The position numbers and the translations under genes were made by a program. Below, piece after piece: positions 25,202 through 43,026 of a DNA stretch of 43,026 nucleotides. How positions within the stretch are numbered: the first letter of the stretch is position 1; every line of letters begins with the position of its first letter. The stretch is from Gammaproteobacteria bacterium (GTDB lineage Bacteria; Pseudomonadota; Gammaproteobacteria; UBA4575). The notes under the pieces are model-generated. The model had not been told where the DNA came from. It did not search any database and saw only the letters and a list, made by a program, of their open reading frames with translations. The DNA lies in NCBI GenBank assembly GCA_026710875.1, contig JAPOQE010000059.1:1-43026 (forward strand), given 5' to 3'.

Positions 25202-26365
25202 ATGAAACCTATTCATCCTTTTCCAGCAAGAATGGCACCTGAATTGGTAAAGGAAAAATTCATCTCTATGCCTAAAGGATCAAAAGTGCTTGATCCTATG
25301 TGTGGATCCGGAACAAGCTTAAAATATGCAATAGATGCGGGATTAAATCCTGTCGGATGGGATATAGATCCACTTGCAGTCAAAATGGCACGAACGTGGT
25401 GCCGACGTTTCGATATAAAACGACTTAGACGGCTTTCAGAAGAATTGCGCCTTAAACTAAATCGACAGCGTGTATTGCCTCGTTGTCGATTTGATAACTG
25501 TAGCGAAACCCAAGAATTTGTGGATTATTGGTTCGCCAGAGAACAACAAGATGATCTCAATCGATTATCCATTGCAATAGAAGACATGTTTCCACCTGGA
25601 CGTACACGGGATTTTTTCCAAATTGCGATGAGTAGAATTATCATCACGAAATTCAAAGGGGCATCCCTAGCTTGGGATATTTCACACAGCAGACCACACA
25701 AAAAAAAAATAACTAATGACTACCAGACCATACTAGAATTTTTCAAGTCATTTGAAAAACTAGTACAGTTATATGAGGCCACACCCAGTAAATATGATGC
25801 TTCAATCGAACTTAGAGACTGCAGAAAGTCAGTGCCACATAAGGAATTCGATTTCATAATCACCAGTCCTCCATATCTAAACGCAATTGATTACATGAGA
25901 GGACATAAATTTTCGCTTATTTGGATGGGTTACACGATTCCACAACTCAAGAAAATTAAAAGTAATTCTGTAGGAGTAGAACGTGGTATTTCTCCACTAT
26001 ATGAGAACGAAAAATATCAGAAAATAATCAAAGATGTATGCACTGGTCGCCAATTAAATCCGAAAGTAAGAAAATACTTATTACGATATATATATGACTG
26101 TGAAGTTATCATTGAACGGTTGAAATCTACTCTACAACCAACAGGTGATCTCGTTATGGTGGTAGGAAATTCATCTCACTACGGTACAAAAATATCTAAT
26201 GATAAAATTTTTGTAAATATTGCCACTGATGCCGGATTCAATTTAATTGACAAAAAAAAGCGATCTATTGCTAGAAGGTCGAGATATTTACCGATGTTAA
26301 ATGGTCACCAATCTATCTCTAACAGAATCAAAACTGAATCTGTGATTCACTTTGCAATTGCTTGA
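25202..26365 (+). CDS. DNA methyltransferase, probably N4-cytosine, motif order I-TRD-IV
   Basis: 387 residues. Motif I VLDPMCGSGTSLKYA is near residues 29-43 with DIDPLAVKMA after it, and motif IV TSPPYLNAIDYM starts at residue 221. The region between is the probable target-recognition segment. I before IV with a central insertion is the alpha-like order; TSPPY favours N4-cytosine. The opening HPFPARMAPEL is typical of this group. It ends with a 19-bp overlap with the convergent 149-aa gene that belongs with the Z1 helicase, so the three probably form one modification-linked system. Local AT content is higher than in neighbouring regions, which may indicate separate acquisition. Confidence 0.8.
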   Translation: MKPIHPFPARMAPELVKEKFISMPKGSKVLDPMCGSGTSLKYAIDAGLNPVGWDIDPLAVKMARTWCRRFDIKRLRRLSEELRLKLNRQRVLPRCRFDNCSETQEFVDYWFAREQQDDLNRLSIAIEDMFPPGRTRDFFQIAMSRIIITKFKGASLAWDISHSRPHKKKITNDYQTILEFFKSFEKLVQLYEATPSKYDASIELRDCRKSVPHKEFDFIITSPPYLNAIDYMRGHKFSLIWMGYTIPQLKKIKSNSVGVERGISPLYENEKYQKIIKDVCTGRQLNPKVRKYLLRYIYDCEVIIERLKSTLQPTGDLVMVVGNSSHYGTKISNDKIFVNIATDAGFNLIDKKKRSIARRSRYLPMLNGHQSISNRIKTESVIHFAIA

Positions 26366-26796
26366 AGCATATCATTGCTAAAACCTCGAGACTTACTTCT
26401 CTCCAATTTCTCTCGACCTCCAACAATGTACATTTGTCGTTTTCTTCTTTTAACATGCAGATTTAGTGAAGTATCACCTTTTTTTCGAGAAGCTATTTGA
26501 TTAAACTCATTCAAACTTAATGTCAAAAATCCATCATAACCACATACAAGACAAATATAAGTTTTTTCTGTATCTTCTGAAAGCAATTGAATTTCAGTGA
26601 GGTTATCTTTAGTAAAACTGAAAACCCATGGCGAAAGACGTTTTGATGAATGCTTGATAAATAATCCAATTACTTCGTTAACGATAAAGCAATTAACTAT
26701 CCCGTGAATGTCATGAGCTTTGATGTGAATGCCATCAGGTAATTCGACTGCCAACTCTCTAACAACCAATCCGTGGTATTGTTCATAATCAGCCAT
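26347..26796 (-). CDS. Small conserved partner of Z1 protein, unknown function
   Basis: 149 residues. Recognisable parts: WVFSFTKDNLTEIQLL, then YICLVCGYDGFLTLSLNEF and a basic C-terminal stretch LHVKRRKRQMYIVGG. I recall similar small proteins next to Z1-type helicases, but the family is unnamed to me. The start overlaps the Z1 stop by 8 bp, so the two are co-translated. The tail-to-tail overlap with the methyltransferase gene is 19 bp. A nuclease or DNA-binding role is possible; no PD-(D/E)XK pattern is clear. Inference only. Confidence 0.6.
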   Translation of the reverse strand: MADYEQYHGLVVRELAVELPDGIHIKAHDIHGIVNCFIVNEVIGLFIKHSSKRLSPWVFSFTKDNLTEIQLLSEDTEKTYICLVCGYDGFLTLSLNEFNQIASRKKGDTSLNLHVKRRKRQMYIVGGREKLERSKSRGFSNDMLQAIAK

Positions 26797-28744
26797 AATC
26801 AGGCGAATTCCATAAAAAACTTAAGCTGCTTATATCGTCACAATCATATTTATAAAACAACCTCCCTTTTTTGCGGTTGAAGTGAAATATCTTAAAGTGA
26901 TGTGTTGCAGATCGATCTTTGTCTCTATCAAATTGACCCCAAAACCCTCTAGACCTATATATATTTTCAATATCGTCTCCGCGTCCAGGATCAGGTTTGA
27001 AAACACTCACATCTGCAGGTTCATAAAGAGCTACCTTACTGCTACCACCTCCGAAATTTTCGACAAATTGCATAAGATGTGAAGGAAATGCACTAGCTGG
27101 AAGTAATTCATTAAGCCGCGACAATTTCGATTCATGTGAGTCACCATTATCACCAAATATTTCTCGTTCTATATTTTCATTTATATCAAACAGGTTAAAA
27201 GATAATTCTCCTTTTTTCGTTTGAAAAACATTTGTTTTATCAATACTTGAGTTAGCAACGGCTGCCACTCTCTTATCTGTAATCCATATGGGTGGATTCC
27301 CGCTCCTTGCACCATTCAATGAAAGTTTATGGTAAACGAAACAGCGGTGCCAATCGCTATACAGCTTCTTTGGAATCGTTAATTCAAAGTGTTCTAGATA
27401 ATCGCCTCGTACTCCAAACATGCGGGCTCTTTGAATGTATGTGTCTTGTTGGATTTTATGCTTTACATCTCTTGTGAAGTACATTGAAAGTAAGTTATTC
27501 AAGGTCACACCGCGGGAAACTATGTTGCCCCCTATAACCACCGTAAATAATGCTTTAGGGTTCGTGGCATCTTGCCCACTTACGGAAACATCCTTCTTTG
27601 AGTTTAGAACTATTACTTTATGCCGCGAGATATTCTTTAAAATAAATTCCGTAATAAGATTAGGGTCCTCGTTCGGAAACCTTTGACGAGCCTTTTCCCA
27701 TACTTCCTGCACATAGATTTTCCATTTTGGAGAGTTCTTATCTATCAATATCCCAATTGCATTTTGGATGATCTTCATATCCTTTTGATGGTCATTCACT
27801 TTCCCACTTGTATGAATAAGCATTGAATAATTCGTCATTTCAAAATCATCTAATTGTAAATTAATGTAAGAAGCTGCAACGAGAAAACTGAAGAATGCCT
27901 CCCTGGTATACTTGGGTGCATCACAACTATCTGATAGCAGTTCCAGGATATATAGAACATCCTTATGAATAGGAAAGAAATGGTCTTGTCCTGTATAAAG
28001 TTCATGTGCCGGGAACTCCACCCATTTTGCAGTGACATTACCAAAAGTATTATTCAAGTCTAAGCGCGCGGGAGTTGCGGTCACTCCTATATATCTCCCT
28101 TGAATTCCCAATAGCTTTTCAATCAGCTCATTTATTTTTGTTTTATCCTTTTTATTTATTTTTGAGTTCGGCGTTGCATAATCAGCTTCATCATCAATCA
28201 CAACTATATTTCCAAGCGTATCTAATTTGTCTATTAGTTTTTCTAAATCCCTCGCGTTTTTTTTACAAAATACTACATGACGCACTCCTTTAACTCGGTG
28301 AGCAGGATCAATGATTTCAGAAAAATTTTTCGGAGATGGGGCAAGTCCACTAGTCTGAAAGCGTCCTAAATTTTGAGATAAAAGATCGACACTATCATTA
28401 AGGAGCAATACGATTAATTTATAACCTGAATCAAGAAGTTTGGCAGTAAGACAAATCATCATCTCAGTTTTGCCACATTGCGGTTCTCCATAAATGATAA
28501 ATGGAGGAGGAGTTGGCTCATTCAAATTTTCAATTGCTTGGGTAACAGTCTTTTCTATTTGGTCTATCTTTACTTTTTTTCGACTAAGACGTTTAAGTTG
28601 CCCTTCATACTGACTTGAATAATCAGTTAAATTACTGAATTGACTTATATTGAAATTTTGTTCCATATACATTATTTCTGCATTGGGTGTTACAGAGCGC
28701 TCAGCATACGTATTATAAAGATTTGATTTGTGACTACTAGACAC
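26789..28744 (-). CDS. Z1-domain protein, SF2-helicase-like ATPase
   Basis: 651 residues. Walker A FIIYGEPQCGKTE is near residue 86, the DEAD-like box VVIDDEADYA near 184, motif III GVTATPARLD near 221, then VIGGNIVSRGVTLNNL near 400 and QRARMFGVRGDY near 446, the hallmark Z1 region. Z1 proteins are SF2-type ATPases found with DNA methyltransferases and nucleases in defence loci. It is cotranscribed with the 149-aa gene, and the methyltransferase faces it. The GTG start at 28,744 has no clear ribosome site; MEQNF at 28,663 is the alternative. The upstream side is cut close by an IS3 remnant, so any earlier operon gene is lost. Confidence 0.8.
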   Translation of the reverse strand: MSSSHKSNLYNTYAERSVTPNAEIMYMEQNFNISQFSNLTDYSSQYEGQLKRLSRKKVKIDQIEKTVTQAIENLNEPTPPPFIIYGEPQCGKTEMMICLTAKLLDSGYKLIVLLLNDSVDLLSQNLGRFQTSGLAPSPKNFSEIIDPAHRVKGVRHVVFCKKNARDLEKLIDKLDTLGNIVVIDDEADYATPNSKINKKDKTKINELIEKLLGIQGRYIGVTATPARLDLNNTFGNVTAKWVEFPAHELYTGQDHFFPIHKDVLYILELLSDSCDAPKYTREAFFSFLVAASYINLQLDDFEMTNYSMLIHTSGKVNDHQKDMKIIQNAIGILIDKNSPKWKIYVQEVWEKARQRFPNEDPNLITEFILKNISRHKVIVLNSKKDVSVSGQDATNPKALFTVVIGGNIVSRGVTLNNLLSMYFTRDVKHKIQQDTYIQRARMFGVRGDYLEHFELTIPKKLYSDWHRCFVYHKLSLNGARSGNPPIWITDKRVAAVANSSIDKTNVFQTKKGELSFNLFDINENIEREIFGDNGDSHESKLSRLNELLPASAFPSHLMQFVENFGGGSSKVALYEPADVSVFKPDPGRGDDIENIYRSRGFWGQFDRDKDRSATHHFKIFHFNRKKGRLFYKYDCDDISSLSFLWNSPDYG

Positions 28745-28784: not shown

Positions 28785-29127
28785 TCCTTCCCCAAAAACT
28801 GGTCCGGACTTTATGCGAAATTCTGACTTAAATGGCTTTGTTTTTCCTCCTGTTTCCGGTGCGCTTGTGCAAACTCCACCGGGGTCTTGTACTCCAGCTG
28901 GCTGTGTGGCCGTTCGTGATTATACATCTCCCTCCATCGGTCTATCTTGACCCGTACATCCTCCAAGGATAAAAACCAATGCTGGTTCAAACATTCCAGC
29001 CTCACCCGCGCATTCAATGACTCGATGAACGCATTGTCCGTGGGCTTTCCAGGACTGGAGAACTCCATGGTCACGCTATTGGCGTAGGCCCACAGATCGA
29101 CCAGCCGGCTGACGAACTCGCTGCCCG
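28785..29127 (-). mobile_element. IS3-family transposase C-terminus with terminal repeat
   Basis: Continuing in frame from an HTH gene, the sequence reads GSEFVSRLVDLWAYANSV, GKPTDNAFIESLNARVRLE (the catalytic Glu) and HERPHSQLEYKTPVEFA, the last ~100 residues of an IS3 orfB. After the stop at 28,811 comes CCAAAAACTGGTCC (28,792-28,805), shared with the left end of the IS3 at 41,968. The junction with the host gene is at about 29,128. Confidence 0.75.
28792..28805. repeat. IS3 terminal inverted-repeat motif
   Basis: CCAAAAACTGGTCC, matched (one extra A) at 41,968-41,982. It marks the outer end of the IS3 fragment here and the left end of the near-complete element there. Confidence 0.6.
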
Positions 29128-29446
29128 CCAACTCATCCAGCGCATATCTGAGAAATTCCAACTGCAGCTTGGATAGTGGAACCTGGCTTTTGGACTTCAT
29201 CTGTTTCCGCAGGCGCTCTTCAATTTCACTGCGGTATGCCGGTAGCGGCGGTTTCTTTGGTGTCTTACCCGATGCTACCCTGGCCCAATATCCTCTGGGT
29301 GGCTTCGGCACCTGAAGGCGGCGGCATAGTTTCCCTAGAGCAACATCAGAGATCCCAAGCTCTCGTGCAACTTGCCGCGCCGGCTGTTCCCACACCAAAG
29401 TAAATAGTTCTTCTCTACCAAGGTCCTTCGATCGCGCAGTATCAAT
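29128..29446 (-). pseudogene. Helix-turn-helix 'GYW' protein, truncated by IS3
   Basis: The frame gives LGREELFTLVWEQPARQVAR, ELGISDVALGKLCRRLQVPK and PPRGYWARVASGKTPKK, a familiar short HTH-containing hypothetical family with a conserved GYWAR. It begins at, or just inside, the end of the helicase gene (helicase TGA at 29,442-29,444), with no clear ATG. At residue ~90 it fuses in frame to the IS3 integrase tail, so the C-terminus is lost. Its position as third gene of the sacsin/helicase unit suggests it was a regulator or component of that system. Confidence 0.55.
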
Positions 29447-32141
29447 GGGTTGACTCGACTGATGACCAGATCAACGCGATCGCTTTATGTTCAGGAATCC
29501 TAAATGGAAAGTTGAGCCCTTCAATCTCAGCCGCAATTACCTCACTTGCTTTTTGAACAAACTCCGTCATCACTTTCGTATGGGTTTTGGGTACACTTTG
29601 GGCTTTTTCTTTCGTGCGAATATTGTTCAGACGTTCAAGAACCTCCCAATCTCGAAGTGTTTTCCAGTCGCTATCCTCTTTTGGCTCCATCCCAACAATC
29701 GCTAGACGCATATGACCGGATTGATCTGTTACGCGATCAAATACCTGAAAGATGACCAACGGTGACTTAAGCTCATTGCTAAACGTTAGTGATACCGGGT
29801 ACTCCGCAGCCACTCGTAATGCTTTATCGAAAACTTTGTGGCCTACACCAAGCACCTTCTCTGCAGTTTTACCCCCCAGGATACTGCGGTCAAAAACCAT
29901 TTCATCATACCTTCTGCGTATGCCTGGCTCATCCAACCAAGATTCTGGGATTTTAAAGGTTAGGCTATCGCCGGTACGAGCTGGCCTACGTCTCTCTAAC
30001 GCCAACATATTTTCGAAAAATGTACGCAAATCCGGCAGGTCTACGTTCGGCACATCCTTAAGTCCCGACAGATCAAACCGCGTTGCATTTCCTACTAATG
30101 CTTTAACGGTGTCGATAGCTGATTCTCCGCCAAGTGTCTCGGCCTTCTTGTCGAACCAGTCATCCAATCGCCCCTTCTTCACAAACTGTCCTTCACTGAA
30201 CAGCTCTGAAAACATACTCGATGACGACATCCCGAGCACCAATTGCAGAAGATCCTCTGGCTCATCCATCGCCCCCGACAGGGCTGACATGATTCTTGCG
30301 AGCTTTGCGTTTAGCAAATCCCAGATTCTTGCTTCCACCGTTGCAGGATTTCGTAGCGTAATTACTTCTACAGGTTTCTTTTGCCCGTATCGATTGAGTC
30401 GACCCACGCGTTGATGCAGACGCATCGGATTCCAGGGTAGATCCACATGAATCAAGGAGTAACACTGTTCTTGTAGATCGATGCCTTCACCACCAGCTTC
30501 AGTAGAAATCAAAAATCGCACTTTCCCCGCGTTGAAGAGATCTGCCGCTTCTCCCCTGTCGATTGATCTATTTACTGTAGAGCCATCAGAAAGTATCAAA
30601 CCCTCCAGTCTCTCGTCTCCATTGATAAATGTGACGCAGTCATCGCCATACTTCGTCATTAACGCCGTCATCAATAGAGACTGAGTAGCTTTGTATTCTG
30701 TGAAAAATAAAACCTGACGTCCTTTGTAACGACCTTCCAGAAGATCTAGTATCTTTTCTATCTTGGTTTCTGATTCCACCGCATCTGCCGCTTCTACTAA
30801 TGCCTCCAAATGCGGAATCTCTTCTTCCATAAGTGTCAGCGTTGCTTCTGCCAACATCATATCTACGTCGTCTTCGAGATCATCCAATATGGATGACTCA
30901 TCAGCTGCAGTTGCAAGTGCCGTCTGCTCTTTATTGGTCAGGCGGATTTTTTCCTTCAGTTCCTCCCTTGTGGCGCGAAGCCTCCCTACTCTCCCTTTAA
31001 GAGCCTTTCGAATCGCAGAAACAGAGCTTGACGCAAGTTTCTGCATCGCAATCAACACGAGAATGACCTGGCGCCCTTCCTTCGCTGACAGAGATGTCGC
31101 ATAGGCTTTACCACTTGCTATAAAGTCGGTTAGCAGCTTGTAGAATGCCTCTTCTTCCTGTTTATATGCATAGGTTTCCGGATAAACAGTAACTGGCTTG
31201 AATAATTTATTTCCATGCATATCGGTAACCAGGCTCTTGTTATTTCTTATGAGAACCTCCCGCAGCAACTCTATTTGTTCTTCATCCGCTTTCTTTGGAT
31301 CGAAAAGGTCTGGCCTTAAGAGTTTCATGAGCGACCAGAACCCAAAAGATTTTCCACGGTGAGGCGTGCCGGTGAAGAAGACACACGACTCCACTTTGTG
31401 TTGCTCTAATAATCGCTCGACGAAACGGTACCCGAGTGTAGACCCTCTCGATTCGTCAGCATTTAGATGGTGAGCCTCGTCTACAATCAACAGATCCCAT
31501 GGATCTGCTTCCAACATCCTTTCATGTCTTCCATGTCGATCAGCCCGTAATGTAGGTAATGAAGCCACCACTTGGTGATGTGTGTTCCAAAAGTAGCCTT
31601 TCTTACTATCCGCCTCCGTCGAATATCTTGCTAACCGAATATCGAACATTTCTCTAAGTCTGAATTGCCACTGCTCTACCAAGGAAGCCGGGCAGAGGAC
31701 CAACAAGCGCCTTACCAGCCCTTTTGAGATCAAAGGCCAAAGAATTAATCCGGCCTCGATGGTCTTGCCTAAACCCACATCATCGGCAACGAGGTAACGA
31801 ATAGGCCATCGACGCGATACGCGGTGACATACCCACAACTGATGCGGCAGAAGAGAGATGCGAGAGCGTGAAAACACTCCCCATGAATCGTTTACAGACT
31901 GAATGGCTGCTGCTTGGCTCTTCGCAATTACTTCAACCGGGTCGTGCCACTCATTCAATTCAAGTGCTGCTTTAAGGCTAACTTGTTTCTTTAGTGCTTG
32001 GATGTCGCACTCTTCCAACCCATGTTCGAACCGTACAATGGCGGTCTCACCCTTTGGATACTCCACTGATCCTGGGCCATAACGCTGATGAACAACCTCG
32101 TCGCCTGGTCGAAGCTGGTGACTACTTCGCTTCTCTTCCAC
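29442..32141 (-). CDS. SNF2/RapA-like DEAH helicase-ATPase
   Basis: 899 residues. A short N-terminal strand region (HQRYGPGSVEYPKGETAIVR) precedes the helicase core. Walker A is VADDVGLGKTIEAGLIL near residue 122, DEAH box LLIVDEAHHLNAD near 222, FFTGTPHRG near 255, and the C-terminal half has LFFTEYKATQSLL, STEAGGEGIDLQEQ and LHQRVGRLNRYGQ. This is the SNF2/RapA plan also used by DISARM DrmD. The C-terminal ~250 residues are unassigned. The GTG start at 32,141 directly follows the TAG of the 2544-aa gene, with AGGAGG about 9 nt upstream. I infer DNA translocation or remodelling in concert with the giant ATPase. Confidence 0.85.
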   Translation of the reverse strand: MEEKRSSHQLRPGDEVVHQRYGPGSVEYPKGETAIVRFEHGLEECDIQALKKQVSLKAALELNEWHDPVEVIAKSQAAAIQSVNDSWGVFSRSRISLLPHQLWVCHRVSRRWPIRYLVADDVGLGKTIEAGLILWPLISKGLVRRLLVLCPASLVEQWQFRLREMFDIRLARYSTEADSKKGYFWNTHHQVVASLPTLRADRHGRHERMLEADPWDLLIVDEAHHLNADESRGSTLGYRFVERLLEQHKVESCVFFTGTPHRGKSFGFWSLMKLLRPDLFDPKKADEEQIELLREVLIRNNKSLVTDMHGNKLFKPVTVYPETYAYKQEEEAFYKLLTDFIASGKAYATSLSAKEGRQVILVLIAMQKLASSSVSAIRKALKGRVGRLRATREELKEKIRLTNKEQTALATAADESSILDDLEDDVDMMLAEATLTLMEEEIPHLEALVEAADAVESETKIEKILDLLEGRYKGRQVLFFTEYKATQSLLMTALMTKYGDDCVTFINGDERLEGLILSDGSTVNRSIDRGEAADLFNAGKVRFLISTEAGGEGIDLQEQCYSLIHVDLPWNPMRLHQRVGRLNRYGQKKPVEVITLRNPATVEARIWDLLNAKLARIMSALSGAMDEPEDLLQLVLGMSSSSMFSELFSEGQFVKKGRLDDWFDKKAETLGGESAIDTVKALVGNATRFDLSGLKDVPNVDLPDLRTFFENMLALERRRPARTGDSLTFKIPESWLDEPGIRRRYDEMVFDRSILGGKTAEKVLGVGHKVFDKALRVAAEYPVSLTFSNELKSPLVIFQVFDRVTDQSGHMRLAIVGMEPKEDSDWKTLRDWEVLERLNNIRTKEKAQSVPKTHTKVMTEFVQKASEVIAAEIEGLNFPFRIPEHKAIALIWSSVESTH

Positions 32142-35100
32142 CTAGTAAACCTCCTCGTCTGTTAGCGCTCTACCCAGTAATTCTTGCTGAAGCTCCCACT
32201 CTTCCGAGACCCTTTTCAGAGGAATATCGAAATCGCCGCAGAAACTGGCTTTTTCCTCCCCTACATTCTCCATCAAGAAACTCTGCATCAAAGGAGATGC
32301 TTTAAGTCGTGGTACAGCTTCAATGTCTTCGCATCCCAATTCATAGAAGAGTCGTCGAACTCGCTGATAGGGGACATAAGCATGTTGACGAAGGTGCGAA
32401 CTGTCGATAATCCGGTTTCGGATCAGCTCCCTGATCACAAAGTTTGCACCCATCCCGAGAGTTCGTCCTAGTGGAGGGGCCGCTATACCTCCCCCTTGTT
32501 GATCTGCATCCGCAAGGGGAGAAAACACCAAGTCCAGATCAAAATGGCTTCGGTACCTTTCCAGCCCAAGCAACAACTCCACAAAATCATCTAGGTGGCG
32601 CGATAATTTATAGATGATGGGAAATCGCATCATCCATTGTTCGTAGTCCTGTTGATCTACTTGCTGATCAATGTATTGATCTAGAACCCCCATCCAGTCG
32701 TTGAAACGTTGAGCTGGAGCGGGGTCCGTGAACACGTCCCACCAACCACGGTTTTGGCAATTTTCGATAAATCTGCGGTGCTGTTCTGGCTGAGTCCGCC
32801 CCATAGTATGGAATCCACCGAGGAGCAACAGCACCAGCCAAGATGACCGATCTACAGTGCCGTCATCATCGTCCGCAAGTCGAAGCGACAGGCCCTCTGG
32901 ATAAATCTGTTTACGATAGTTATCAAGCACTTCGGTTCTTGCGCTTTCCCACCATTCGTATATTCGGTTAAGCGCACTTTCAGCATCAATCCGCTCCAAC
33001 AGTGGGGCACTATCCCCATAGTTATGCCACGCGTTTCTGCTTTCACTCGGCGTCTTTAATACCTGGTATATGAGCTTAGACCGACTATCAGAGTCCCAGT
33101 CCTCCAAATATTCAGAATCCTCACCAACCGACACCAACCAGGTACCACCTATCCCCTTCTCATGCAAAGCACTGGCGACTTGTGAGGCAAGCTCTCCTTT
33201 TATCAGGTATTTCAATGCTGCACGACGTCTGTTGTCATCCTCTGCCTGAATAATCCAGTCCTTGAGCTTCTCTGCTGGAGCCTCAAGCTTGTCGCGACAA
33301 AACAGAAAGAACTCGACAGCGCTCCCATCGTAATCTTTTGCCAAGCGATGATTGTCTGGCGAAAACGCCCATCGAAGCGCCTCATCTTCGCTGTGGTTTT
33401 CGGTAAGAAGGTTTTTGCACTTCTCAATCGTTTCACCAGCAGAATGAAATTGGAGTTCTCTAGCCTTTTCCGCTGCGAGTTTCATATCCTTAATGTGCTC
33501 GAGAGGGACCTCCTTTTCGGGTTGATGCCAACTATCCAATGTTTGTGAATTTAGCGCCTTCCCAAGAATATTTGCATCTGACGGATTTATAGCGTTTTTG
33601 CTATCTAACTGCACAATCAGGCTCGTAAGGTTTGCTATTCTCCATTGCGAGGTATTTGATCCAAACTCAGGAACAAGCATTCTCAGCCAGGTCGCCAGCT
33701 CGGAAGAAACAGCGGTTCTCGCATCCAACATTCCCTGAAAACAGGACGTTTCTGATATAACCTGCAGCACGTGATCATCCGCTAGTGCATCTTTTAACAC
33801 TGTTTTCACGTCTGATATCTTAATTAAACGCTTCAACTCTCCTGGAAGACCGTTTGGAACGACTTCCTCGTCTTCCGCCAATTTTTGCAGCCCCTCTTTA
33901 ATAAGAGCAGTAGCGATAACCCGGGTGCTGGAATCACGCGGCATCTGCGGTAAACGCGCCATCAACACTTTCCAAAGCGTGCCCCACAGATGATATGGCT
34001 CTAGTCCGGGTACCAATTGCATTGCAGCAGAGACGTCCATCCAGCGAGAAGTTACTGACTTATGTAGGTGATCAAGCTCTAACGCTAATTGGCTTCCCAA
34101 TCGACGAGCTAGGCATTCATTTTCAGTGACGCTTGCTGATAGACGTGAACGTCCAGCATCGACTTCAAACATTGCGTTAATTGCAAAGCCTATTCGCTCC
34201 TGCTCTCTAATTGGCGCTGTGACCCACAAATTTGGGATCTCCTTTGGCAGTTCCTCGAACCCTTGTGTTCCTATTGATAGGAGGAGCGCTCCATCAGGAA
34301 GCACAACCCGCAATACAAGGAGATCGTCGCCTGCCTGTCGTGCGTGCCCTACAAAGATATTCTCGCACCCCGGAAGTAATGTGCCCTCCCAGCTAGCTGA
34401 CAATTTGCCGTTGGCACCGCGATCGATATCAATGGCGCGAATATTTCGTGCGAAAGCGACCATGACACCAGCCACTTGCGAGAACTGATTAAGAACATCA
34501 CTTCCTCTGACCTCGACGAGGGGCAACGAAATACCAGTACCTGGCCACTGGCTATCAGGCTGAAATACTGACATTCTCTTGCGTAACTCTCGGCTTTCCG
34601 TATTCTGCGTTGCCATGGGCAGCAACCCACCAATTATTTCTGCTTGAAGTCGGCCACTCAAAACGGTTGGGCGATCGGATATCAGCCAAACGCTTTTAAA
34701 GCCCAATCCGAACTTACCGGTTACATCCTCTCCCTTATCGGAAGCAGACAGGATCAACATGTTTTCCAAGTCCCGATCGTATCCACGATCGCGTCCCGGG
34801 AAGCCCTTGCTGCCAAATTGGTTAATAGCGCGTCCCCAGTGCATGAAGATGAGTCGTTCCTCTGTTGCATCTACGACAAATCGACAAATAGAGGCGGGAA
34901 GAGGATCTACATCCAGATCTCCTGGTTTTGCCGGATAAGCATCGATTAATTCCAGATCGTGCAACGCATCATCTGCATTTTGAAAAATCTCAAAAGGAAC
35001 ACTTTCTATCTGGTATTGAAAATCTCGGATTTTGCGTCTGACCGACTCCAATATCGTTTTCTGTGCACCCTCATCTGATTCAATGATTCTTTGCAAATCA

Positions 35101-38100
35101 ATGAGCGATTCTTCTTTTCTCTTGCTGTATTTTTGTTCCCCAGCTGACCCAGCAAACTCTTTTTCCTTTCTTTCATCGTCCCTATATCTATTTAAGCTGG
35201 AGCTTAGGATGGGGTATTTATGCACCCCCAACTGCTTCAAATAAAAAGGAATATTTTGCAAGATCAGTGAACGGGCAAGCTCGATGCCTACCTGGTCTGA
35301 TTTATCCAGTTCATTCCACAGGTCATCGAGGCGTGGTTGTAATTGATTAAAGACCTCACGCAGAACGTAAGCCGTTGAATTCTTAAGATACGTGGATAAC
35401 TGCTTGTCGGAACATTGTTCTACTGAGATCTTTCGAATAACCAGATCGATACGATATCCATCTTGTTTCTCCATGCGGTGATAACTCGGCCTACCAACCA
35501 GCAATGTCGAGAACTCCTCCTCAAGCCCTACCGAGATTAACTCACCGAGGATCGAATAGACCTGCATGCTATTCTCATCATGAACTCTTACCGTCATACG
35601 AAAGTATTCCAGTGCTTCATCGAACGAAAACCCAAACAACCATGTTCTTGCGCCACCCGAATCGGTACCTTGTGGAATTTTCCAAGGCACCTGATCGACA
35701 AGCCATTCCCTTGAATGTTGGTTAAGCAATTCTCGACAAAGAGATTTGATTGACTTATCTGCACCAAACAAAAGTACAAATAAACCCGTTATCGATGGTG
35801 CGACCCGGCCGGACCATAAGGTAAAGTAATTACGAAGTACACCAGCAGCGGCTTGCGTTTCACTCGCAGGCTCCATCTCCGGTGATTGCTCTGCGTCTTT
35901 TACCGCTTGACGATCTTGAAAAATCAAATTTGCAAGAATCTGGGCTTGTTTTGGGTCCAGGACATGAACTTTCGCTACTCCGATAACATCACTTACCAAT
36001 TCTGCGCTGGACTGCCAACGATTTGCCTGACTGAGCAATTTCAAGCGGCAAACCGCCTCCTTAGCATCTGGAGAGCTTGCAAATACTTTTAAATAGCGAT
36101 TGAAAACGTGAACAGCTTGCCCCTGATCACCACCACGTCCGGAAATCCAATTCAACAGATTTACTATGGCCTCCAGACTCATCGGCGCACTCATCGATGA
36201 CACTAGAGGTAAGAGATCGATATCGTCTCCATGTGCGGCCAAGATCGCTGAAAGGAGCCGCCAACCGGGATGCTCATACGAAGAAAGAAGACTTGCCGCT
36301 TCTCTAAGCGCTTCTGAATTCTCGAAAGTGATACTACCTATCTGGTAGGTATCTAGATCCGCAAGTACTAGTGCAAGCCGATCAATACCTTCTTGCCCGC
36401 GTGAATGATAGCGCTCTTTGATTTTGGGGTAAAAAGGATGCGCCAAAAACTCTTCATCCAGTCTTGATGGCGTAGTGAAGGTATCGGGCACCTGGGCGAG
36501 AATTCGGTCTAACTCAACTTCGGCAGCTTCCAGATCAATAATGTCATCTGGTTTTTCTAGTTCGCCCCTGGTCGTAGGCACCCAGGCTACTTCCTTTATC
36601 CGCCTGCCTAATTCTGGTGATACCTTGTTAGGTCCAGTATTCAGAGATTGCAACGCATCTGCAATCACACGCCATACTTCCTTAACAGTTGGACTTCTCA
36701 GTGCCAGCTCAATAATAGCGCTTTCGTCCAACGGCCTTAGAAGGGCTTTCTGTCGACGCCGCACCTCACTGTCTGAGCTGCAGGGAATCAGATATGCGCC
36801 TCGAAGTAGTTCCTCATCAACGTCTATTACACCACTATCTAGATACACATTTTCGTCGTTCCCCCGAACCGGTTTGCCCTGAGGCGTCCAATGGAAGGGC
36901 AGCGAACACCAGAGTCGATCATCTTTGACTGTTCGGAGAATCTGATCGCATTCTTCTTGACTGAAACCGGAAGAATCGACCATTGTCACGTCTCGTTGCG
37001 CTATTTCTTCGATTACCGAATTCGCGCGTATCTCCCTAATGCCAATCTGGCGCGCGACGTCTCGAGATAATCTATCTGCAATATCAGCCGCTACCAGGTT
37101 CCATGGCTCATCCTCATTTTCGACTAGTTGTGCCCACAGCTTTCGCCAAACCAGATGCTGTTCTTCACCTAGAATCCAGAGGGCATCGTCGTCATCAAAA
37201 TGACCGTTATCGGCATGAAGAAGGAAGCGAAGACCCCGAATTTCAATTTCCCCACTTGGTGTGCTCACGCTGCCAGCCAACTTCGCCCTTGCCTTCAGCT
37301 CGCCAAGAGTTCTGACTTTTTGCCCGAGAGTGCGAAGGACTGCCCCCCCATTGCAAGGTGACATTGCCCGTTCCTGGTTCAACGCAAGTTTTGCCGTTTC
37401 GGCGTTTATCAGGAGAACACGGACGTTCGGGAGGATTTTCTGAAGATCAGGAGCCAGTCCCAATCTTTCTTGGGGGCTAATGCTCTGACTAAAACCAAAT
37501 AAAACGCCGTCTTCCCTGGCGCTCTCTATTTCTCTCAGGGAAACCGCAACCATCTCACCTGATTTACAATCGTACGCCCCCAAGATATCTAGGTCGGCAC
37601 AACGCTGCAAAAGCTGCTTTCGGTGCTCAGCAGCAACGCCTTTGATAATCTGTTCAGAAAGTGACAACGCCGATTTCCGAATTTCTTGACTCGGTTGCTT
37701 CCCGCCTTTTATCACATCTTGCACGTTTCTCAGCAGTTGTGATGCGTCATTTATGGATAGCGATGCTGTGCCACTCCATGCTGTCGGATAAAACCGTGCA
37801 GGCACCAATACAAGGTCGGTATCTATGGAAAACAACTGCTTGAGTAAAGTAGAGGGGAAATTATTGTCTATCCGGAAGCAACGTTTCTCATCCATATGAC
37901 TAACGATTTCTCGAACTCGTTGCTGATTTTTACCCAGCCCATCCTCTCCGGTACGAATCATCCCGGTTTTGAACACCTCTCCTAGTTTCTTATTAACCGT
38001 GCCAATTCGGATATAGGGCCCCGCTGACTGTTCCAGGAAGCTCGCGAAGTAATCCAATAGAGTAGAATCCGAGAACAGCGATCTGTCGTCCACTGAACCG

Positions 38101-39776
38101 AAAAGGTCGAGAAGGTCTTGCTCGCCCCACTGCACCACTGAATCCGGATTTACGATGTTAGGTGCTCCTGCGACAGACAACCAATATTTTTTGGCCATAT
38201 CCTTGAGGGATTGAAACAAACGCCATGGCCTGTTGGGATCTGCTTCCGGTGGTGCTGGGAGACTCAGAATCTTCTTTTCATTATTTCGTAGCGCCCATCT
38301 GACTCCATCTTTGGTGAGTTCCCTCAACCAACTCTGCTGGGCAGTAATTGGTCCTTTGAATCGACGTAGCAAGGCAGTCTGATTCAGCGCCTCAGATAGG
38401 GCCGTTCGCGCCTTATCAGCTAACGGAAGCTCTGAGCAAAATGCATCCAATGCAGGTAGCAAGAGCGGGAGCACGGCAGTATGCAACAACTCGCAGTTCC
38501 AGGCACGACGCAAGGCTTCTTCACTTTCAAACTCTGCGCTATCGAGTCCATCGCATTCATCCAACCCATGTACACCCTGTCGGCCAGCATCAATAAAGAA
38601 ATAGCCGTGCAGTGTAAGACGAAAGTCGTGCGATCCATCGCACCGAATCGCTTCTGAAGCGTGAGCTTCGTCGAGCGGTAGAAATACCGACCAATTGGTG
38701 ACGAGTTGCCCCGTGCCCGGTGTTCGTGAGAAGAAAACTGCGCCATGTGACCGAGCCTTGTCCTTTGCCTCTCTGGAGTGCCCTAAATCATCCCTAACGT
38801 AACTACTGGGCCAGAATTCATGGCCATGCATAACCGTCAAAGAGGAATTCCAGCCAAAATACTCATATCCGGAGAATTCCAGCGTCTGATTTTCCTCCCT
38901 CTTAATTACACGGATTCTGCCCTTTAGCACATTGCGCTTACTGTGTGCCGCATCCACATCCAGAACGTCTTGCTCCACATCTACCAAGGAAGGTCTCTCG
39001 GCACCTTCGCCTAGGATAACGTCGAAGTACGGCTTAGCAGCCTCGCTAACTCCTTCAATCTTCCAATAGGCAGCCCGCTTCACATGTCGGAGCATAGGAA
39101 TCAAAGCGGCGATTTTTACACCGAGGCCATCGTCGTCTAGAAAATTGAGCAGCGCCACATCGTCGCCCGGATATTCAGAAACGATGGCCCCCGCCCTTTC
39201 TCCATTTGGGAGAAAGAGGTGAGCCTTTTTTCTCAGAGGTAGCCACAGGATGAAACATTGATGCGGATCTGACGATATCTTCTTCGTGATACCGGACACA
39301 TAGCGTCTAATGGTTTGGGCATCCTGCTCGGAAAACTCGTCCCAATCCCGATGCAGGGTTTGCTCCGAATCGGCTCCACTCCACGGGTTGAGCACTTCCG
39401 CGTAGGCTTTGTTGCCGTCGTGGGCCAGAAAGAAAAACGTTTCACAGAAATGGAACACACTTTTCATGCCCAGGCCGAATTTACCGATGCTAGCCTGGTC
39501 TGCCGCCTTCGAGTTCTGACCGAATGAACGAATTCCACGGGCGTCTGAGGGCTTGAACTCCCCATTGTTGATCAAAAACAGCCCTGGACCCCTGAGCAAG
39601 GGATGCGTCGCATTCGGCAGTCCAGTTGACAGTCCGTAATGTAGTTCTGACGCCAGAGCATCGTCGGTGTTCTGAATCAGTTCCTTGAGCACAGGGAAAC
39701 CGGTCTGATACCGATCCCGCAGGTTGTCGGCAATCAGGTTTACGAACTGTATAGGGTCCTGGATAAATCCTGCCAT
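32142..39776 (-). CDS. Giant protein with two sacsin/Hsp90-like ATPase domains
   Basis: 2544 residues, unusually long. Residues ~1-250 form a sacsin-type GHKL domain: VLKELIQNTDDA (29-40), then GLFLINNGEF and SIGKFGLGMKSVFHF (~96-110). A second copy begins near 1590: VPFEIFQNADDALHD, then LILSASDKGEDVTGKFGLGF and KSVWLISDRP near 1684-1702. Between them (~250-1580) and after (~1800-2544) lie long helical regions without known motifs; a basic, charged stretch near 1525-1580 (KEKEFAGSAGEQKYSKRKEE) may link the halves. The start ATG at 39,776 has AAGGAAACC. It is followed without gap by the SNF2 helicase. Sacsin N-domains bind ATP and act chaperone-like; an antiphage role is inferred from context. 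Confidence 0.8.
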   Translation of the reverse strand: MAGFIQDPIQFVNLIADNLRDRYQTGFPVLKELIQNTDDALASELHYGLSTGLPNATHPLLRGPGLFLINNGEFKPSDARGIRSFGQNSKAADQASIGKFGLGMKSVFHFCETFFFLAHDGNKAYAEVLNPWSGADSEQTLHRDWDEFSEQDAQTIRRYVSGITKKISSDPHQCFILWLPLRKKAHLFLPNGERAGAIVSEYPGDDVALLNFLDDDGLGVKIAALIPMLRHVKRAAYWKIEGVSEAAKPYFDVILGEGAERPSLVDVEQDVLDVDAAHSKRNVLKGRIRVIKREENQTLEFSGYEYFGWNSSLTVMHGHEFWPSSYVRDDLGHSREAKDKARSHGAVFFSRTPGTGQLVTNWSVFLPLDEAHASEAIRCDGSHDFRLTLHGYFFIDAGRQGVHGLDECDGLDSAEFESEEALRRAWNCELLHTAVLPLLLPALDAFCSELPLADKARTALSEALNQTALLRRFKGPITAQQSWLRELTKDGVRWALRNNEKKILSLPAPPEADPNRPWRLFQSLKDMAKKYWLSVAGAPNIVNPDSVVQWGEQDLLDLFGSVDDRSLFSDSTLLDYFASFLEQSAGPYIRIGTVNKKLGEVFKTGMIRTGEDGLGKNQQRVREIVSHMDEKRCFRIDNNFPSTLLKQLFSIDTDLVLVPARFYPTAWSGTASLSINDASQLLRNVQDVIKGGKQPSQEIRKSALSLSEQIIKGVAAEHRKQLLQRCADLDILGAYDCKSGEMVAVSLREIESAREDGVLFGFSQSISPQERLGLAPDLQKILPNVRVLLINAETAKLALNQERAMSPCNGGAVLRTLGQKVRTLGELKARAKLAGSVSTPSGEIEIRGLRFLLHADNGHFDDDDALWILGEEQHLVWRKLWAQLVENEDEPWNLVAADIADRLSRDVARQIGIREIRANSVIEEIAQRDVTMVDSSGFSQEECDQILRTVKDDRLWCSLPFHWTPQGKPVRGNDENVYLDSGVIDVDEELLRGAYLIPCSSDSEVRRRQKALLRPLDESAIIELALRSPTVKEVWRVIADALQSLNTGPNKVSPELGRRIKEVAWVPTTRGELEKPDDIIDLEAAEVELDRILAQVPDTFTTPSRLDEEFLAHPFYPKIKERYHSRGQEGIDRLALVLADLDTYQIGSITFENSEALREAASLLSSYEHPGWRLLSAILAAHGDDIDLLPLVSSMSAPMSLEAIVNLLNWISGRGGDQGQAVHVFNRYLKVFASSPDAKEAVCRLKLLSQANRWQSSAELVSDVIGVAKVHVLDPKQAQILANLIFQDRQAVKDAEQSPEMEPASETQAAAGVLRNYFTLWSGRVAPSITGLFVLLFGADKSIKSLCRELLNQHSREWLVDQVPWKIPQGTDSGGARTWLFGFSFDEALEYFRMTVRVHDENSMQVYSILGELISVGLEEEFSTLLVGRPSYHRMEKQDGYRIDLVIRKISVEQCSDKQLSTYLKNSTAYVLREVFNQLQPRLDDLWNELDKSDQVGIELARSLILQNIPFYLKQLGVHKYPILSSSLNRYRDDERKEKEFAGSAGEQKYSKRKEESLIDLQRIIESDEGAQKTILESVRRKIRDFQYQIESVPFEIFQNADDALHDLELIDAYPAKPGDLDVDPLPASICRFVVDATEERLIFMHWGRAINQFGSKGFPGRDRGYDRDLENMLILSASDKGEDVTGKFGLGFKSVWLISDRPTVLSGRLQAEIIGGLLPMATQNTESRELRKRMSVFQPDSQWPGTGISLPLVEVRGSDVLNQFSQVAGVMVAFARNIRAIDIDRGANGKLSASWEGTLLPGCENIFVGHARQAGDDLLVLRVVLPDGALLLSIGTQGFEELPKEIPNLWVTAPIREQERIGFAINAMFEVDAGRSRLSASVTENECLARRLGSQLALELDHLHKSVTSRWMDVSAAMQLVPGLEPYHLWGTLWKVLMARLPQMPRDSSTRVIATALIKEGLQKLAEDEEVVPNGLPGELKRLIKISDVKTVLKDALADDHVLQVISETSCFQGMLDARTAVSSELATWLRMLVPEFGSNTSQWRIANLTSLIVQLDSKNAINPSDANILGKALNSQTLDSWHQPEKEVPLEHIKDMKLAAEKARELQFHSAGETIEKCKNLLTENHSEDEALRWAFSPDNHRLAKDYDGSAVEFFLFCRDKLEAPAEKLKDWIIQAEDDNRRRAALKYLIKGELASQVASALHEKGIGGTWLVSVGEDSEYLEDWDSDSRSKLIYQVLKTPSESRNAWHNYGDSAPLLERIDAESALNRIYEWWESARTEVLDNYRKQIYPEGLSLRLADDDDGTVDRSSWLVLLLLGGFHTMGRTQPEQHRRFIENCQNRGWWDVFTDPAPAQRFNDWMGVLDQYIDQQVDQQDYEQWMMRFPIIYKLSRHLDDFVELLLGLERYRSHFDLDLVFSPLADADQQGGGIAAPPLGRTLGMGANFVIRELIRNRIIDSSHLRQHAYVPYQRVRRLFYELGCEDIEAVPRLKASPLMQSFLMENVGEEKASFCGDFDIPLKRVSEEWELQQELLGRALTDEEVY

Positions 39777-40108: not shown

Positions 40109-40835
40109 ATGAACATCCACAAGAATGCCCGATTAACTCTTGCAGGTCGAACGATACTGGTGCGCCGCATGGTCAAGGAGGGGCTACGCGCCGAGGAAGC
40201 TGCGCAGGCTTCGGGGGGTGAGTGCGCGCACCACCTACAAGTGGCTGACCCACTACCGGGCCGAGGGCCTGGCGGGGCTGCAGGATCGTTCCTGCAGACC
40301 TGTCCACAGTCCCCAGCGCACCGGTGCGGGGGATCGTGCGAAGATCCAGGCCCTGCGCAGGCTTCGGTGCACCTATCAGGAGATCAACCGCCTCACCGGC
40401 GTGGCGCACTCCACCGTGCGCCGCATCCTGAAGCAGGCCGGGCTGAACTGCCTCGCCAGCCTGCAGCCGGATGAAACCGCACACAGCGCCTGTGGCGCCC
40501 TGATCGAGACACTGCGGTACTTCAAGACCCTCGGGGTCTCCTTCACCCGCATCCTGACCGACAACGGCGCCAGTTATCGCTCAAAGCGCTTTGCCAGACT
40601 GTGCCGGCACCTCAAGCTGCGCCATCTCCGCACCCAGCCCTACACGCCGCGTACCAACGGCAAGGCCGAACGCTTCATCCAGACCGCCCTGCGCGAATGG
40701 GCCTATGCAAGAGCCTATGACAGCTTAGAGCAGCGCGCGCACTACCTGCCCCTGTGGCCGCACCGCTACAACTGGCACCGACCGCATGCCAGCCTGGAAT
40801 ACAAACCCCCCAGCAATCCCTTAACCCCCCACTGA
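40109..40835 (+). mobile_element. IS481-family transposase, frameshifted and internally deleted
   Basis: The ATG at 40,109 (AAGGAG upstream) opens MNIHKNARLTLAGRTILVRR, the standard IS481 start. A G-run (40,213-40,218) appears to carry one extra G; in the next frame VSARTTYKWLTHYRAEGLAG continues the HTH. The catalytic core is broken: after LASLQPDETAHSACGAL the sequence jumps to FKTLGVSFTRILTDNGAS, so the first catalytic Asp region ('IDIKKL') is missing, while the second Asp (DNG) and Glu (KAERF) remain. The right terminal repeat, GGTGGGTTTACACACCTA, ends at about 40,862. It cannot move by itself. A near-identical solo end lies at 8796-8878. Confidence 0.85.
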
Positions 40836-41982: not shown

Positions 41983-42032
41983 ACGGAGGGAGTGATTTTT
42001 GAGAGACTTTGAGCAAAGAAGGAGGGAGTCAG

Positions 42033-42299
42033 ATGAAGTCCAAGAGGTATTCGGTAGAGCAGGTGGTGGCGGCATTGAAGCAGCACGAGTTGGGCACGCC
42101 GGTGTCGGACATAGCCCGCAAGTTGGGGGTGGCCGAGCAGACATTTTATCGGTGGAAGAAGCAGTATGGCGGTTTGGAGGCGAGCGAGGTACGGGAGCTC
42201 AAGCAGTTGCGCGAGGAGAACACACGGCTCAAGCGGCTGGTAGCCGATTTGAGTTTGGACAAGGTGATGCTGCAGGATATTGCTTCAAAAAAATGGTAG
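42033..42299 (+). CDS. IS3-family orfA transposase
   Basis: 88 residues from MKSKRYSVEQVVAALKQHEL, preceded by a GGAGG site (an upstream in-frame start at 42,009 is weaker). The helix-turn-helix is DIARKLGVAEQTFYRWKKQY, followed by a leucine-zipper-like stretch REENTRLKRLVADLSLD. It ends SKKW then TAG at a run of seven A, where a -1 ribosomal slip would join it to orfB in the usual IS3 manner. The copy appears intact. Confidence 0.85.
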   Translation: MKSKRYSVEQVVAALKQHELGTPVSDIARKLGVAEQTFYRWKKQYGGLEASEVRELKQLREENTRLKRLVADLSLDKVMLQDIASKKW

Positions 42300-43026
42300 G
42301 CGCATTGCAACGCCGGTCGGCGGTGCGCCATGTGCAGCGGTGTTACTCGGTAAGTGAGCGTCGTGGCTGTGAGGTAACCGGCATGCATCGCAGCACCTGT
42401 CGATACGCGTCGGTGCGTCCATCTCAGGCGGCGCTGCGGCAGAAGATCCGGGATCTGGCACGCAGTCGGATACGCTATGGCTACAAGCGCATCCACGTAT
42501 TGCTGAAGCGTGAGGGCATTCACATCAACAAGAAGCGTGTCTATCGTCTGTATTGTGAGGAAGGCCTGCAGATCAGGGTGCGTCGTCCCAGGCGGCATGT
42601 CACGGCTGCAAGCCGACAACCGCCGCGTGCCAGGCCGCAGGGGCCGAACATGGCCTGGAGCATGGACTTCGTCAGTGACCAGGCTGCGAACGGGCAGCGT
42701 TTTCGCATGCTGACGGTGGTAGACGTGTTTACACGCGAGTGTCTGGCGATTGAACCAGGCCAACACCTGGGAGGTGCAGAGGTAGTCAATGTGCTACGCC
42801 GGATTGCCGCCGTACGCAAGGCACCCAAGCGAATCTACTGTGATAATGGTAGCGAGTTTTCCGGACGTCTCGTGGATCTTTGGGCCTATGCCAACGGCGT
42901 GGTCATGCAGTTTTCACGACCTGGCAAGCCGACCGATAATGCCTATATTGAGTCATTCAACGGCTCGCTCCGGGATGAATGCCTGAACGTACACTGGTTT
43001 GACGATTTGACAGATGCACAGACGAA
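42293..43026 (+). CDS. IS3-family orfB transposase, runs off window
   Basis: The frame beginning ATG at 42,293 overlaps the end of orfA and stays open to the window edge. It contains IRYGYKRIHVLLKREGIHIN, then MAWSMDFVSDQ (first catalytic Asp), RIYCDNGSEFSG (second Asp) and GKPTDNAYIESFNGSLRDEC (Glu), the full DDE set of an IS3 integrase. No disruption is seen. Expression as an orfAB fusion via the A7 slip site is inferred. It is the best-preserved mobile element in the window and a candidate source of the recent rearrangements. Confidence 0.85.
   Translation, partial: MVGALQRRSAVRHVQRCYSVSERRGCEVTGMHRSTCRYASVRPSQAALRQKIRDLARSRIRYGYKRIHVLLKREGIHINKKRVYRLYCEEGLQIRVRRPRRHVTAASRQPPRARPQGPNMAWSMDFVSDQAANGQRFRMLTVVDVFTRECLAIEPGQHLGGAEVVNVLRRIAAVRKAPKRIYCDNGSEFSGRLVDLWAYANGVVMQFSRPGKPTDNAYIESFNGSLRDECLNVHWFDDLTDAQT

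Follow-up and report, generated by a model that had tools for sequence, protein, structure and literature searches.

Why should a giant protein with two separate Hsp90-type ATP sites be encoded directly in front of an SNF2 helicase, in the midst of defence genes? The question is raised by the contig JAPOQE010000059.1 of a Gammaproteobacteria bacterium (assembly GCA_026710875.1), whose 43,026 nucleotides (nt) are called the window here. On its minus strand, gene 1 encodes a double-sacsin/Hsp90-type ATPase of 2544 amino acids (aa) and gene 2 encodes a RapA/BrxHII-type SNF2 helicase of 899 aa. The two genes are a conserved unit, and it is likely, in our judgement with good confidence, that this unit has a defence role. 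More tentatively, the pair may be an anti-mobile-element defence unit of its own, in which a translocase and a paired GHKL clamp would act on DNA or on a DNA-bound complex.

Conservation of the two-gene unit

The two genes and their junction are located as follows.

32142..39776, minus strand: gene 1, 2544-aa double-sacsin/Hsp90-type ATPase (open reading frame (ORF), Pfam SACS and NF047352 twice each, 32 full-length homologues)
29442..32141, minus strand: gene 2, 899-aa RapA/BrxHII-type SNF2 helicase (Pfam SNF2-rel_dom and Helicase_C, PADLOC, RapA)
32139..32144, minus strand: junction TAG-GTG with zero gap between gene 1 and gene 2 (sequence)

The gapless junction, TAG directly followed by GTG, had been noted in the original prediction, which was made from the letters of the window, and is seen in the sequence. 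At other loci the junction is mostly a 4-nt overlap or a gap of few nt; longer distances, of 677 bp and 819 bp, occur at L016 and L017. The species genomes of GTDB were scanned with an alignment of five helicases as query, and two short peptide patterns were required, so the scan undercounts helicase loci. The helicase clade comprises at least 45 GTDB loci (L012-L056) with 43-80% identity, followed by a sharp drop to about 30%. By profile mapping, 41 of the 43 clade loci having upstream DNA carry gene 1 directly upstream of the helicase and in the same orientation, and the helicase occurs without gene 1 on two contigs of metagenome-assembled genomes (L018 and L042). Among the outgroup helicases at ~30% identity, 2 of 35 stand behind a sacsin-type protein, and both cases are weak and divergent (L070 and L079, Verrucomicrobia). 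The distances of gene 1 and of the helicase are correlated (Mantel r=0.90, 0/5000 permutations), a value that includes the contribution of shared host descent. No third fixed gene was found when 398 flank proteins were clustered, the largest cluster being cytosine methylases from 4 loci.

In 72,556 plasmids, the helicase was matched at E<1e-100 in five records, all of which also carry gene 1, and the two further gene 1 records are one truncated copy and one copy interrupted by an insertion sequence (IS). How often gene 1 occurs without the helicase was determined on plasmids only. The gene 1 of Haematobacter (L009) has neither C-terminal domain nor helicase, and that of Synechocystis (L010) ends abruptly near IS elements; both are read as decayed copies.

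The original prediction had proposed a search for such ATPase and SNF2 pairs across genomes, and the unit was indeed recovered, spread patchily over about eleven bacterial phyla as judged by record titles. Homologues in a housekeeping role outside defence islands had been named there as a result that would speak against the idea, and no locus with a housekeeping context or a vertical distribution was seen. Plasmids carry the pair, and in one case it lies next to a prophage integrase. On the IMG/VR contig L109, the intact pair lies beside a putative tyrosine integrase and putative phage early genes (named by eye), either within a prophage or just outside it. The source genome has one copy of gene 1.

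Some loci show additional features around the pair. In Thiocystis, a PIN-domain gene is positioned between gene 1 and the helicase (L016:9451-9957), and a fragment resembling it lies ahead of the lone helicase of L018 (L018:8192-8578). One Thiocystis genome has the pair twice, and the second copy, L108 (G372:C176), is clustered on one strand with PglZ, BrxA and the RecD-like PDC-S68. The sister pairs of Verrucomicrobia (L070:4060-12610 and L079:4231-12706) consist of a sacsin-type protein, of 473+1443 aa or 1906 aa, immediately followed by a RapA-like helicase. On the Haematobacter plasmid pOT1-5, a 1405-aa protein beside the truncated gene 1 (L009:7499-11716) matches Pfam SACS with 23 bits, below the cut-off. 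At L109:202-1302, a 366-aa protein is encoded directly before gene 1, and its IELKRD stretch could be a PD-(D/E)XK nuclease motif (by eye).

Anatomy of the giant ATPase and the helicase

The original prediction had described gene 1 as a 2544-aa ORF with two sacsin/Hsp90-type sites and unassigned helices between them. The ORF and both sites were recovered, with the N-boxes and FGLG loops at the places given there, and the helices can now be divided into presumed Hsp90-middle-equivalent segments, a predicted solenoid of ~1100 residues and, at the C-terminus, a conserved helical domain. The features of gene 1 are listed below.

38427..39776, minus strand: module 1 (residues 1-450), sacsin/Hsp90-type N domain and presumed Hsp90-middle-equivalent segment
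39660..39683, minus strand: N-box 1 (residues 32-39, ELIQNTDD), invariant in the 30 homologues with this region
39468..39485, minus strand: G-loop 1 (residues 98-103, GKFGLG), with G98, G101 and G103 in 30/30
38580-38582, minus strand: R399, module 1 counterpart of R1876, present in 32/32
35097..38426, minus strand: residues 451-1560, helical solenoid joining the modules (AlphaFold2, low-probability generic alpha-solenoid matches)
34077..35084, minus strand: module 2 (residues 1565-1900), second N domain and Hsp90-middle-like segment (profile, sacsin/HtpG and fold matches)
34968..34991, minus strand: N-box 2 (residues 1596-1603, EIFQNADD), with E, Q, N and the last D in 32/32
34701..34718, minus strand: G-loop 2 (residues 1687-1692, GKFGLG), with G1687, G1690, L1691 and G1692 in 32/32
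34149..34151, minus strand: R1876, putative catalytic arginine of module 2, in 32/32
32145..32954, minus strand: residues 2275-2544, conserved C-terminal helical domain (conservation; helical in AlphaFold2)

Gene 1 matches Pfam SACS (E=4e-28) and NCBIfam NF047352 (3e-29), each over two stretches. In module 1, the SACS match covers residues 19-185, and residues 6-114 match the SR1 region of human sacsin (5v44, E=8e-13); module 2 has profile matches as well as matches to sacsin and HtpG. The alignment comprises 32 full-length homologues, two of which are gene models without the N-terminus, leaving 30 for the motifs of module 1. In these 30 homologues E32, Q35, N36, D39, K90, G98, G101 and G103 are without exception, and in all 32 so are E1596, Q1599, N1600, D1603, G1687, G1690 and G1692; for the N-box residues this is far beyond chance. 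R399 and R1876, also kept in every homologue, each lie within F-x-x-D-x-G-R in the window protein.

Both ATP sites look catalytically competent. A published comparison of Hsp90 and sacsin gives as reference the G-loop of Hsp90, its residues E33, N37 and D40, its catalytic arginine R380, and R474 of sacsin (PMC9880540). By this comparison, the N-box and G-loop positions of gene 1 would correspond to E33, N37, D40 and the G-loop of Hsp90, and N70 would match the asparagine that in sacsin replaces D79 of Hsp90. In N-box 1, E32 is presumed to be catalytic and N36 to bind Mg/ATP, while R399 and R1876 may be equivalent to R380 of Hsp90 and R474 of sacsin.

For residues 1560-2544 the AlphaFold2 model has a mean predicted local distance difference test (pLDDT) score of 86.5, and the solved structures that match it best are those of Hsp90, TRAP1 and GRP94 (540-790 columns, low global template modelling (TM) score). 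Since these proteins top the structural matches, an Hsp90-like arrangement of N and middle domains in module 2 is likely. The motifs and the fold matches, the latter for module 2 only, suggest a putative Hsp90-middle-equivalent segment after each ATPase. The solenoid region (residues 440-1600) was modelled with pLDDT 85.1 and a predicted TM score of 0.45; in the fold search it matched only generic alpha-solenoids at low probability, and it shows no catalytic motif and no sequence relative in the PDB. Within gene 1, hhalign relates ATPase 1 to ATPase 2 with probability 98 and every other segment pair with <21, so that by sequence a repeat can be recognised in the ATPase domains alone. The alignments for structure prediction took in no sequences of two plasmid-derived rows.

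The last 270 residues form a conserved helical stretch that has no named relative. Here W2313, W2345, G2443, R2449, E2450 and D2517 are kept in nearly all homologues. This domain is a candidate contact for the helicase, and domain and helicase are both missing at L009. At L008, L011, L025, L051 and L052, two to four ORFs take the place of a single gene 1. The breakpoints vary, which suggests that its parts are modular, and some of the splits may be effects of sequencing or decay.

The architecture of gene 1 resembles eukaryotic sacsin in that several Hsp90-type modules occur in one giant chain with the same catalytic residues (PMC9880540). However, sacsin has three modules together with UBL, J and HEPN domains (PMC3710099), whereas gene 1 has two modules, another C-terminal domain and an SNF2 partner. 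Human sacsin beyond SR1 was not among the solved-structure matches to gene 1.

In gene 2, the RapA-like SNF2 helicase of the original prediction was identified by matches to SNF2-rel_dom and Helicase_C, with RapA (8so8) as the closest solved relative in the profile search (E=4e-47). Its RapA-type superfamily 2 core has all motifs of the BrxHII/RapA class, and those examined (Walker A, DEAH, motif III TP and motif VI) vary little or not at all among 48 sequences.

31761..31775, minus strand: Walker A (residues 123-127, GLGKT), with G123, G125, K126 and T127 in 48/48
31470..31481, minus strand: DEAH box (residues 221-224), in 48/48
30399..30413, minus strand: motif VI (residues 577-581, QRVGR), with Q577, R578, G580 and R581 in 48/48

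By eye, an N-terminal GDxVxHxxxGxG stretch of the helicase resembles the single Tudor domain carried by BrxHII (PMC12839542).

Proposed function and competing explanations

The defence role is argued from the company of the pair. When 95 flank proteins were compared with PADLOC at 1e-15, 188 families were matched, against 8 for 95 control proteins; the control is crude (proteins at contig starts of arbitrary contigs from other genomes), and the figures count families, a measure that methylases raise because each fits many models. In line with the original prediction, no named defence system with this pair was found in the open-access literature, PADLOC 2023 or NCBIfam June 2026. In that NCBIfam release, neither protein exceeds the cut-off of a specific family beyond the generic sacsin domain. 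The parts themselves are of known families, and systems using each half exist, namely Tiamat for the ATPase and BREX and DISARM for the helicase class.

GHKL ATPases, as in Hsp90, gyrase, MutL and MORC, close upon ATP binding, and three ATP sites are kept intact together in the pair, two of the GHKL type in one chain and one in the SNF2 motor. An intramolecular dimer clamp of the two ATPase modules, working with a DNA translocase, had already been suggested in the original prediction. Gene 2 would be a double-strand DNA translocase of the RapA/BrxHII type that loads on invading DNA and then moves along it. The paired GHKL modules would close ATP-dependently around the DNA or a DNA-bound complex, and this closure would stall or strip replication or transcription, or would keep the DNA silenced, with no nuclease of its own. 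We infer DNA as the substrate, clamp closure and the non-nucleolytic effect. Pfam and NCBIfam revealed no nuclease, methylase or toxin family in either protein, nor did PDB profile and fold searches in gene 1, and for this reason a motor-loaded clamp that stalls or silences invader DNA is the simplest model.

A bolder form of this proposal is possible but doubtful: the pair could be a nuclease-free immune system spread across phyla, with two Hsp90-type modules of one chain as an ATP-gated DNA clamp that a RapA-like motor loads or drives, a bacterial parallel of MORC/SNF2 silencing of invader DNA and possibly a prokaryotic relative of the sacsin architecture. The plant and animal MORC proteins (MORC6, the DRD1-DMS3 pathway) are compared by function only, as a GHKL ATPase and an SNF2 protein acting on invader DNA, while their architecture is unlike and their setting is RNA-guided. 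MORC-1 topologically entraps DNA (PMC8277788).

Several points weigh against the clamp proposal. The equivalent domains of human sacsin may not dimerise (PMC9880540), and the Hsp90-type modules could have proteins, not DNA, as their substrates. The C-terminal region of the helicase may hide a nuclease fold; no invariant PD-(D/E)XK-like motif occurs among its conserved positions. In addition, the probable defence role is read from genomic context.

The best surviving alternative is a chaperone-type machine, in which the RapA-like motor would displace proteins from DNA, RNA polymerase or phage complexes for instance, and the Hsp90-like modules would remodel them. The N and middle-like modules of the Hsp90/sacsin type are as this explanation would have them, and RapA, the closest solved helicase, is an RNA-polymerase-associated translocase; but no client-binding region was identified in the pair and the vertical distribution of a housekeeping machine was not seen, which leaves it unlikely.

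Somewhat less probable is a sensor or licensing unit that has no effect alone and switches on the nucleases of neighbouring systems. Recurrent, though not universal, neighbours could be such partners: the RecD-like helicase PDC-S68 occurs at L015 and L108, a related RecD-like pair at L011, and an RNase H/superfamily 1 helicase gene overlaps gene 1 at L047. However, even the commonest flank family is limited to 4 of about 50 loci, so that a fixed effector partner did not emerge, and the window pair stands between transposase remnants.

That the pair is an accessory or variant module of DISARM, with the helicase as DrmD, or of BREX, with a BrxHII-like helicase, is improbable. The PADLOC DrmD model PDLC02634 does cover helicase residues 11-896 with 1031 bits, and DISARM genes adjoin the pair (L008; drmA/B/C in Trichormus). 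The NCBIfam scores for DrmD are nevertheless far below the cut-offs (270 against 610 for NF038317 and 157 against 950 for NF038318). DrmB (DUF1998) is absent from 16 of the 20 carrier genomes, including the source genome. Among the scanned window proteins there was no match to DrmA or DrmC, and the window methylases match type II enzymes. Membership in DISARM was rejected. As for BREX, the helicase matches PADLOC BrxHI|BrxHII with 262 bits and shares its class with the BrxHII of BREX type 3 and with RapA. BREX genes stand beside the pair at L032 (the pair lies between PglX and PglZ-BrxL), L022 (PglZ), L048 (BrxL) and L108 (PglZ-BrxA-PDC-S68). Unlike BrxHII, the helicase of the pair forms its own clade and is partnered with gene 1, not with BrxC, PglX and PglZ. 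PglZ is present in 9 of the 20 carriers and absent from 11, and membership in BREX was rejected because the source genome is one of the latter. Most loci have neither system nearby.

Least probable of all is a non-defence cargo of mobile elements, for element maintenance or DNA repair, which would suit the plasmids, the integrase and the transposase remnants around the window pair but not its strong company of unrelated chromosomal defence systems, and no association with replication or transfer genes was noticed.

Tiamat was also considered as a named system. Its protein is TmtA, and we take Tiamat to be a single-gene system. The best PADLOC TmtA match to gene 1 has 91 bits and extends over about 120 residues, against 1370 positions in the model. 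As only the ATPase core matches, membership was rejected: the sacsin-type core is shared, whereas the pair has two modules and a helicase partner.

If the proposal is confirmed, the pair would be a widespread system of two genes that has three ATP sites but no visible nuclease and that likely stops invading DNA in a new way, and a clamp mechanism without a nuclease, once shown, would make the pair categorically new. It would also offer a biochemically tractable bacterial tandem Hsp90-type protein, an aid to explaining the repeats in the architecture of sacsin, which is lost in the ataxia ARSACS (autosomal recessive spastic ataxia of Charlevoix-Saguenay). For annotation, PADLOC gives the DrmD label to a helicase clade with a partner other than DISARM, and therefore these loci are probably miscalled at present.

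Neighbours of the pair

The original prediction had called all surrounding genes of the window defensive. This is nearly correct, except that the pair is flanked by transposase remnants and that no defence role is assigned to a few of the neighbours. The transposase or integrase remnants are found on both flanks, at 28811-29398 (minus), 40140-40835 (plus) and 42009-43024 (plus), and no long direct or inverted repeats bracket the pair in the window. The adjoining genes at 25202-28744 encode a DNA methylase (plus), a 149-aa protein without family match and a Z1-domain ATPase (minus; PADLOC Helicase_II, 155 bits), and likely form a group of the restriction-modification (R-M) type.

Farther away, a SIR2-domain protein (1097-2668, minus) matches PADLOC PDC-S65, a single-gene phage-defence candidate, over its full length with 635 bits. 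Another GHKL protein of 823 aa with HATPase_c_3 (9182-11653, plus) weakly matches two models of type II restriction endonucleases (REases). A 1513-aa NACHT/STAND-like protein (17768-22309, minus) has weak matches only (PADLOC PDC-M54A, 40 bits). Other neighbours in the window include a type II R-M pair, a TIR protein, and an AlbA_2 protein that lies next to an SMC-like ATPase.

At other loci, the pair is accompanied by pAgo (L019), McrBC (L029), GmrSD (L053), an AlwI-type REase (L037) and a type III REase (L035), as well as by a DruE-like neighbour at L030 and a type IIG/DrmMI enzyme at L014.

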